DNA of 64,000 nucleotides from Kangiella taiwanensis (GTDB taxonomy: Bacteria; Pseudomonadota; Gammaproteobacteria; Enterobacterales; Kangiellaceae), in the NCBI RefSeq assembly GCF_020005165.1, contig NZ_JAHCLT010000002.1, positions 558,001 to 622,000 on the forward strand, in the 5' to 3' direction. The position numbers and the translations under genes are program-made. Shown in pieces: positions 51,214-54,089 of the stretch. A model generated the notes under the pieces. It was not told the origin of the DNA. It did not search any database and saw only the letters and a list, made by a program, of their open reading frames with translations. Position 1 is the first letter of the stretch, and each line of letters opens with the position of its first letter.

Positions 51214-52479
51214 ATGCCAAAGAAAAAATATAACGCCTTCTACGCCCAATCCGGCGGCGTAACAGCAGTCATCAACGCGACAGCCTGTGGCGTGATTGAA
51301 ACAGCGCGCAAATCACTCAACATCAATAAAGTCTACGCAGGCCGTAACGGTATTATCGGTGCTTTGCGTGAAGAATTAATCGACACCAGCAAAGAAACTA
51401 AGAAAGACATTGCTGCACTAAAGCATACGCCTTCTGGTGCTTTCGGTTCTTGCCGCTATAAGCTGAAAAGCCTTGAAGAGAACAAAGCCGAGTATGAGCG
51501 TTTAATCGAAGTATTTAAAGCACATGACATTCGCTATTTCTTCTATAACGGCGGCGGCGATTCGCAAGATACGGCGCACAAAGTGTCTCAATTAAGCGAA
51601 AAGATGGGCTTCCCAATCACTTGTATCGGTATTCCAAAAACCGTGGATAACGATTTACCGATTACCGACAACTGCCCAGGCTTCGGTTCGGTTGCTAAGT
51701 ATGTTGCGGTTTCGATTCGTGAAGCAGCGTTTGACGTTAAGTCGATGGCGGAAAGCTCGACTAAAGTTTTCGTGATGGAAGTGATGGGACGTCACGCAGG
51801 CTGGATTGCAGCGGCAGGCGGTTTAGCCTGCGAAAAAGATGGCGACGCGCCACACATTATTCTGTTCCCAGAAATCGCTTTCAATAAAGAAAAGTTCTTA
51901 AAGAAAGTCGAGCGCACCGTTAAGAAACACGGTTACTGCGCGATTGTCGTTTCTGAAGGCGCGGCTTATAAAGACGGCACCTTCCTTGCTGACGCAGGCA
52001 CAGTGGATGCCTTTGGTCACAAGCAACTTGGCGGCGTTGCACCAGTAGTAGCTCAAATGATCAAAGGTGAGCTTGGTTACAAGTATCACTGGGCAGTGTG
52101 CGATTACTTACAACGTGCAGCACGTCATATCGCCTCTGAAACAGACGTTGAGCAAGCCTATGCCATGGGTCAAGCAGCAGTTGAGTTTGCTGACGCTGGT
52201 AAAAACGCCGTCATGCCGACCATCGTTCGCAAGAATACAAAAACCTACCGCTGGACGGTTGGCGAAGCGAAATTAGCGGACGTTGCTAACGTTGAAAAAA
52301 TGATGCCACGCAAATACATCTCACGTGACGGCTTCGGCATTACCGAAGAATGTCGTGAATACTTACAGCCACTAATTGTCGGCGAAGCCTACCCACCTTA
52401 CAAAAACGGCTTGCCACAATATGTGGAGCTTAAAAACGAACTGATCAAAAAGAAGTTAAAAACTAAATTTGAAATTTAA
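51214..52479 (+). CDS. pfp: Pyrophosphate-dependent 6-phosphofructokinase
   Basis: 421-residue enzyme converting fructose 6-phosphate and PPi to fructose 1,6-bisphosphate, reversibly. The PPi type is indicated by Asp116 in YNGGGDSQDTA, at the position where ATP-dependent PFKs have Gly, and by Lys142 in GIPKTVDND (Asp145 catalytic), where ATP enzymes have Gly or Thr. Length fits the non-allosteric group. It saves ATP in glycolysis and can run in gluconeogenesis. It is divergent from mpl and followed by a terminator. Confidence 0.93.
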   Translation: MPKKKYNAFYAQSGGVTAVINATACGVIETARKSLNINKVYAGRNGIIGALREELIDTSKETKKDIAALKHTPSGAFGSCRYKLKSLEENKAEYERLIEVFKAHDIRYFFYNGGGDSQDTAHKVSQLSEKMGFPITCIGIPKTVDNDLPITDNCPGFGSVAKYVAVSIREAAFDVKSMAESSTKVFVMEVMGRHAGWIAAAGGLACEKDGDAPHIILFPEIAFNKEKFLKKVERTVKKHGYCAIVVSEGAAYKDGTFLADAGTVDAFGHKQLGGVAPVVAQMIKGELGYKYHWAVCDYLQRAARHIASETDVEQAYAMGQAAVEFADAGKNAVMPTIVRKNTKTYRWTVGEAKLADVANVEKMMPRKYISRDGFGITEECREYLQPLIVGEAYPPYKNGLPQYVELKNELIKKKLKTKFEI

Positions 52480-52577: not shown

Positions 52578-52641
52578 ACATAACGCCCGGGCTCAGGGCC
52601 GAGTAGCGAAGCGGAGCATCCCTTGGAGCCCATTGTTAGGC
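52578..52641 (-). other. Integron attC recombination site
   Basis: On the minus strand it begins GCCTAAC (R'', 52641-52635), continues AATGGGCTCC, has a GC-rich inner palindrome and a GAGCCC arm complementary to GGGCTC, and ends GGGC-GTTATGT (R' type, cleavage between G 52584 and T 52583). 64 bases is within the attC size range. It directly follows the stop codon of the 141-residue ORF. Confidence 0.85.
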
Positions 52642-53087
52642 TTACAGTGGTGAGCATTTACCAATTTCCAAAAGTGGTGTATCACTTGAGCTGTCTGTAA
52701 TTTCATTAACTGAAGGTAATACATTGTAATAACCTAATGTGTACGACAAAATATAGCGGCCATTATCTTTTTGCATTTTGAACTCTCCGCCAAGCCCTGA
52801 ACAAAACAGGTAGCCTTGTTCGTTAAATGTTTGTTCACAATAAGCGAGTGGATACTTTGAACCAATTTGGGTTACTTTCAGCACATATTTTCCAAAATCA
52901 GATTTTGAAATTATGTATTTGTTTTCATCTGTTCTAAAGCTTGTTTCTTTCCAGCGCTTTGTCGATTCACTATATGAGAAGCCTGTTGACATATCGGCGA
53001 CGCAAATGTACTGCTCAGCAAAGCAGGGCGAAGTTGTTAAGAGAAGGACTAATACTCCATATTTCATAATTTCTCCTATGAGCCTAA
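52584..53087 (-). mobile_element. Lone integron gene cassette
   Basis: 504-bp unit read on the minus strand. Its 5' edge is GTTAGGC at 53088-53082, then the ORF with AGGAG ribosome site, then attC. The edge heptamer GTTAGGC is the exact complement of the attC R'' box GCCTAAC, as expected if the cassette was once circular and integrated at a G/TT site. No second attC and no integrase gene is in the window, so this is a solitary inserted cassette. Confidence 0.85.
52642..53067 (-). CDS. Cassette-encoded small secreted protein
   Basis: 141 residues with a signal peptide (cleavage near CFAEQ, residue 18) and six cysteines in all (five after the signal), including CVADMSTGFSYSESTKRW and the C-terminal GKCSPL. 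The motif C-x-A-D-x-S-T-G-F with a following WK-like segment is common in cassette-borne hypothetical proteins. No enzymatic motif is seen. It has its own AGGAG at 53072-53076, six bases before the ATG. Confidence 0.78.
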   Translation of the reverse strand: MKYGVLVLLLTTSPCFAEQYICVADMSTGFSYSESTKRWKETSFRTDENKYIISKSDFGKYVLKVTQIGSKYPLAYCEQTFNEQGYLFCSGLGGEFKMQKDNGRYILSYTLGYYNVLPSVNEITDSSSDTPLLEIGKCSPL

Positions 53088-53216
53088 CATTATATTACCA
53101 GACAGCGCTGATAACCTTTGATATTAGAATATTTATTTTCATTGTCGTGTTTGCTTTGCTGATAGTAGCAAGATCAGTAGGTTAGGGGAAGTGTGTGAGT
53201 GGGTAACTTGTCTTTT

Positions 53217-53317: not shown

Positions 53318-53938
53318 TCACTCCTGATCCATATTAAACTCAATCTTGACGGTTTGGCCGACGCTGGCAATAGGCTGTCCATTTGTCATGGCGGGTTTGA
53401 ATTTCCACTTACGTAAGGCCCTCATCGCTTCTCTATCAAAAATCTTGCGTGGCTCAGAGTCCATAACGGCGATATTAGACAAGGTGCCGCTGGTATCGAC
53501 GTCGTATGTCAGTAGTACCCAACCTTCAAGCCCGCGTTGTTGCGCCATAATAGGGTAATTCGGTTGTGTGCGGTACATGGGCATGGCTTCGGACTCCTGA
53601 GAAAAATCCACTGCAGGTACATCTCCTATACCATCTGGTAGGCCGATAACGTCTGGCGTCTCAATAGACACCCACTTCTCTGTTGGAGCATCAATCTCGC
53701 TTGTGTCTATGGGATCGCCATCACTTTTTGGCGCTGGTTCAATCGCTGGTGGTTGTGGCGGTTTTACCACTTCAGGTGTCGGCTTAGGCTTTTCCTCAGG
53801 AATGGTTATGTCACTGAGCTCTACCGTTGGTGGCGGCTCTTCTTCTTTAATGTGCTGATCTTTGATCAGTAGGCTCATACAAAATAACAAGCCTGCAGTG
53901 ACTACGGCGGCGAGTATGACAGATAGAATTGTTCTCAT
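53318..53938 (-). CDS. tonB: TonB-family energy transducer
   Basis: 206-residue protein with one N-terminal membrane helix (about 5-28), a Pro/Glu/Lys-rich periplasmic spacer (about 36-75) and a C-terminal TonB domain (QPNYPIMAQQRGLEGWVLLTYDVDTSG, then REAMRALRKWKFKPAMTNG). I chose the ATG at 53938 because AAGGGGA precedes it. An upstream start adds nine residues. No exbB or exbD gene is adjacent. Confidence 0.88.
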   Translation of the reverse strand: MRTILSVILAAVVTAGLLFCMSLLIKDQHIKEEEPPPTVELSDITIPEEKPKPTPEVVKPPQPPAIEPAPKSDGDPIDTSEIDAPTEKWVSIETPDVIGLPDGIGDVPAVDFSQESEAMPMYRTQPNYPIMAQQRGLEGWVLLTYDVDTSGTLSNIAVMDSEPRKIFDREAMRALRKWKFKPAMTNGQPIASVGQTVKIEFNMDQE

Positions 53939-54089
53939 AATGTTCCCCTTTTTTAGTACTTTCAATTCTATAAACGGCTAAACCAATAAAAGGGGTTAAA
54001 TTTTTTGTCATTTGTTTATAATTAGCCCAATGACGATAAACAATAACCATTGAGAACCATAATAACGACGAAGGATCGGAGCGCTTGCC

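Follow-up and report, generated by a model that had tools for sequence, protein, structure and literature searches.

Integrons are described as one platform, in which a single attI adjoins intI. The sedentary chromosomal type has the order intI-attI-Pc-array; its attI, attC and cassette anatomy recur at the locus described here, and the genus Kangiella has one such integron beside comM. Most attI copies in Kangiella, however, are far from intI, scattered singly and followed by one or a few cassettes each. CALINs, like our locus, are cassettes without a neighbouring integrase, and those found at conserved secondary loci in Xanthomonas are the nearest report (PMC12444791). A CALIN comprises two or more attC sites and no intI, with a default threshold of 2 attC (PMC12444791), whereas our locus has one attC and carries, at its 5' end, a recognisable attI copy, a feature not described in the CALIN reports consulted. 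Single-cassette chromosomal insertions away from the integron are also known at attG sites (Loot et al. 2024, so far as they are described in PMC11023631), but an attG is neither attC nor attI (PMC12444791), and the Kangiella target is homologous to the native attI. An attI outside its usual place is likewise seen in the delta-attI cassettes of mobile integrons; there the attI lies in a cassette, inside the array of the mobile integron (PMC12901181), while in Kangiella it is scattered over chromosomal loci, and ordinary attC cassettes lie downstream of it. Attachment-site-like off-target sites, resembling attI, have been reported as well (PMC10127599). In the searchable literature, with most subscription papers outside its reach, we found no earlier description of dispersed native attI copies and nothing relevant on Kangiella together with integrons.

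The window, a 64,000-nucleotide stretch of the Kangiella taiwanensis genome, contains a cassette between two genes that we take, from recognition of their sequences, to be pfp and a tonB-like gene (Table 1). The first-pass annotation had described this solitary cassette with its 141-residue ORF, its 64-bp attC and an upstream GTTAGGC complementary to the R'' box, and each of these elements was confirmed.

Table 1. Features of the cassette locus and its neighbours, in positions of the 64-kb window.
Feature	Position	Strand	Basis or remark
pfp (presumed), pyrophosphate-dependent phosphofructokinase, left neighbour	51214..52479	+	ORF list and comparison
attC, 64 nt	52578..52641	-	R'' GCCTAAC 52635-52641; R' GTTATGT 52578-52584; fold and attC scan
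Circularisable gene cassette, 504 bp	52584..53087	-	Stretch between two G/TT crossover points
Cassette ORF, 141 aa	52642..53067	-	Sequence and ORF list
attI/cassette junction box GTTAGGC	53082..53088	-	Crossover between 53088 and 53087; position matches aligned copies
Solo attI (R1 model match, E 8e-20)	53083..53187	+	Best conserved part 53085-53146
Conserved 'tail' ATAGTAGCAAGATCAGTAGGTTAGGGGAAGTG	53162..53194	+	End of attI module of about 150 bp at many loci
Gene for TonB-like protein (presumed), right neighbour	53318..53965	-	ORF list and comparison

The ORF starts 14 nt past the GTTAGGC box, ends directly at R'' and is followed by an attC bearing both R''/R' and L''/L' boxes, the arrangement that defines a gene cassette. 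The R and L boxes of the attC bottom strand pair when folded. The fold energy itself is unremarkable (z -0.65), so the case for an attC rests on the boundary match rather than on energy: the 5' boundary GTTAGGC is the exact complement of R'' GCCTAAC. The R' box reads GTTATGT, its last letters being flank sequence, and an attC pattern requiring RRRY in R' therefore misses this site; a fold-based finder was used instead. An attC scan of the 64-kb window returned the cassette attC and two weaker candidates, against 0-2 per shuffled strand. The earlier claim that no further attC is present thus holds in that there is one clear attC, with the two weaker candidates as a qualification.

When the 150 bp to the right of the cassette were used as a query, many matches were found in Kangiella, and in two genomes the match immediately preceded the gene for a full-length integron integrase. 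These were K. aquimarina DSM 16071 (G005) and a Kangiella MAG (G011), in which TAACATTATATTACCGGACAACGCCGATAACC... occupies the gap between intI and the first cassette, that is, the attI. The window copy is 85-88% identical to these two over 65 bp, and it is through these homologues in intact integrons, rather than through an intI at the window locus, that the flank is recognised as attI. Because the flank matches the attI of G005 and G011, the window cassette sits in an attI without a nearby integrase gene. Beside the crossover this attI carries ATTATA, which reads TATAAT on the sense strand of the cassette and may help its expression; no consensus promoter with a matching -35 box was found there. 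The window holds no further attI copy, and the host genome has two in total. The first-pass annotation had noted no integrase in the window, and this extends to the whole genome, where no intI scored above the family cut-off and the partial recombinase matches were of the kind seen in all 14 control genomes. The host thus has no complete integron, with intI adjoining attI, beside comM or elsewhere, and because it has no integrase left the window cassette is probably frozen.

In nine of 20 Kangiella genomes an intI exceeds the family cut-off, and in all nine it adjoins a gene that we read, from its protein (an ATPase of the Mg-chelatase type), as comM. In several other Kangiella the neighbour of this gene is what remains of intI, or attI alone: intI is internally deleted in G013, fragmented in G009 and reduced to N-terminal scraps in G019 and G008, and only attI is left in G014. 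Because comM adjoins intI or its remnants across the genus, the sequences point to one ancestral sedentary integron beside comM, in the order cassettes-attI-intI. The host genome has lost both intI and attI at comM. The suggestion that the window cassette is the last piece of a lost array survives loosely in this loss; the pfp-tonB site itself is one of many solo attI sites. In G013 (C1:73.5-75.1 kb), comM and the deleted intI lie between two outward-pointing attI-cassette units.

R1, a sequence model made from 30 attI copies, matched strongly throughout the genus, with E values down to 1e-30; the highest number for a complete chromosome was 11 matches (G013). In 20 genomes of the family outside Kangiella it gave no convincing match. 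The exact attI pattern matched only records named Kangiella in the GTDB collection of 84,980 species. The first-pass annotation would have given up its reading had the same sequence been present in relatives that never carried integrons; the attI hits proved to be confined to Kangiella, a genus with integrons. Neither the exact pattern in viral contigs nor the window attI region in plasmids found a match, and on these grounds we rejected derivation of the attI from a phage or a plasmid. We collected 52 copies from 16 of the 20 Kangiella genomes, six at the comM integron and 46 solo, usually far from intI. They fall into 28 right-flank clusters, of which about 25 are solo loci once short contigs and tandem pairs are taken into account. 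In most copies the flank shares 75-97% identity over 65 bp with an attI native to a Kangiella integron. Three attI types were distinguished, each resembling a different native attI and each with solo copies, and different types occur together within one genome.

A cassette that came from a circular intermediate has a 5' boundary complementary to its R''. Both a first ORF and a readable AAC crossover were available for 41 copies, and in these we searched from -40 to +150 nt relative to the ORF stop for the exact 7-nt complement of the copy's own 5' boundary. It was present in 30 (26 of 36 when five native sites were set aside), against a mean of 0.35 matches and a maximum of 4 over 2000 trials with permuted boundaries, so the agreement between R'' and the 5' boundary is not due to chance. 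Chance resemblance to an attC was ruled out by this test together with the attC scan. The sequences after the first ORFs resemble attC, and many were accepted by the fold-based finder. The earlier claim of a single cassette inserted by an integrase is supported, and the solitary integron cassette in the window is real. Because the exact R'' is absent from 10 of the 36 solo copies, some solo cassettes have decayed or end otherwise. One solo attI (G005:C1:1592957) is followed by an unusually long cassette, whose ORF encodes 866 aa and has an exact R'' where it ends.

The addresses are shared more widely than the cargo. Ten solo loci are common to two to five species, and no two first ORFs over all loci were similar (BLASTP, 1e-5). 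In the four species nearest the host, pfp is 99-100% identical and the genes in the pfp-tonB interval are all different; G004, G001 and G014 carry their cargo at the same attI, and G006 has attC-bearing cassettes beside the tail motif only. The comparison of this interval proposed by the first-pass annotation was successful in part: the interval is cassette-free (about 50-100 bp) in more distant Kangiella, but the closest species hold other cassettes and no empty GTT site could be read. More generally, none of the orthologous intervals examined offered a clean empty site, other genes being present instead. One of the two G014 cassettes in the pfp-tonB interval, a 364-aa gene, matches a cassette of the integrase-linked array of G011 over 1102 bp at 92% identity, with the identity beginning at the crossover; solo sites and integrase-linked arrays thus share a cassette supply. 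In G014 the interval holds two tandem attI copies, each with its own cassette and with about 450 bp of flank duplicated (C33:26.2-28.0 kb). Three species have other single genes, and no recognisable attI, in the interval orthologous to G006:1040878, where G006 has an attI with its cassette (L169, L170 and L171); these are possibly decayed cassettes or products of another insertion route. Short GGGGTCAGAGTAAA...TTTACTCTGACCCC repeats with a REP-type look occur in or between cassettes of several Kangiella (L040, L041, L009, L077 and L078).

We consider it very probable, judging from sequence comparison, that the one cassette in the window entered a solo attI, a member of a dispersed Kangiella family, through IntI-mediated attI x attC recombination. 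Copies of attI, some of which retain part of the intI leader, sit at about 25 loci other than the ancestral comM integron, and each holds its own cassette or short array; in the mechanism that we propose, the integrase would act in trans, or would have done so before its loss. Many solo-attI hosts, including the window genome, are now without an intact intI. IntI presumably made the insertions, and solo sites should be active where intI survives. A bolder reading, which we put forward tentatively although it is quite possible, is a distributed integron, with attI as a dispersed, mobile, multi-copy module and one trans-acting integrase exchanging single cassettes at many addresses.

How the attI copies spread can be judged from where they end. 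Type-A copies extend into the intI leader for varying lengths (114-320 bp), and one solo site, in G018 C5, keeps half of intI (about 150 aa). Because some solo copies keep part of intI in this way, some family members may be whole integrons minus intI. Type-B copies, among them that of the window, stop at the tail ATAGTAGCAARATCAGTATGTTAGGGAAAG about 150 bp past the crossover, and what lies beyond is unrelated; this form occurs at about 12 loci. In the window copy a deletion has shortened the distance from crossover to tail end to about 110 bp. At G009:997 kb the tail adjoins an attI of another type. We also saw the type-B tail with a degenerate attI at G004:393 kb and without any attI at G004:383 kb and G006:1006 kb; it may be an independent repeat.

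The possible, if somewhat doubtful, alternative is that complete units of attI, intI and array were inserted repeatedly at different loci and that intI was later lost each time, so that attI and one or two cassettes were left. The leader pieces of type-A copies and the half intI of G018 C5 are what such losses would leave behind; the internal deletion of the comM-linked intI in G013 and the presence of several attI types within one genome also agree with it. Random decay, however, would not end type-B copies at one motif (...GGGAAGTG) at about 12 unrelated loci, no type-B locus that we read contains an intI, and in G009 the tail occurs with a second attI type. Since the type-B form ends at its tail at about 12 loci and the tail also accompanies another attI type, we favour a compact module that moved over whole integrons that decayed at random, but both may have happened.

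For such a module, one rather unlikely route is that attI moves in composite or delta-attI cassettes excised and re-inserted by IntI itself. IntI1 mobilises attI-bearing cassettes in the laboratory (PMC12901181), and the tandem attI-cassette-attI of G014 resembles the delta-attI arrangement, but on its right side the type-B module does not end in a G/TT crossover box, and with its duplicated flank the G014 tandem fits a simple duplication too. Less likely still is a MITE, a small transposon-like element of which the tail would form one end. The sharp right edge common to many loci suggests such an element, as does a near-inverted copy of part of the tail just outside the attC in the window; this copy is absent from the other type-B loci, we found no inverted repeats common to the attI copies, and neither a transposase nor a target duplication was seen. 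Least credible of all is insertion at an unrelated site of the attG type, with the shared flank a coincidence; a secondary site was one of the two options of the first-pass annotation. Insertion of this kind is well established (Loot et al. 2024, to the extent cited in PMC11023631) and some intervals hold genes without a recognisable attI, but at the window locus it is contradicted by a flank that is a copy of a genuine attI and that recurs at about 25 loci, in most copies with close similarity to native attI sites.

Lone cassettes and CALINs can thus arise from dispersed attI copies as well as by loss of the integrase or insertion at attG, and methods that need intI or at least two attC overlook such sites. 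If the sites are active, each solo cassette would stand first behind its own attI, not deep in a silent array. Kangiella is a ready test of this, with species that have and lack intI and with different cargo at the same addresses.

The 141-aa protein encoded by the window cassette has a putative signal peptide, judged by eye from its N-terminus, and cysteines in the mature part. It matched no family in Pfam or NCBIfam, its predicted fold was of low confidence (pLDDT 58) with no credible PDB match, and no homologues were found in the GTDB contig scan, in viral contigs or in phages; the one plasmid match, at 24%, was too weak to use. A homologue 44% identical over the whole protein was found in a distant gammaproteobacterium. 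Its gene is followed by an attC-like site and has three further attC sites upstream, that is, it lies in a cassette cluster. Since this distant homologue is also a cassette gene, the 141-aa gene belongs to the floating cassette pool.
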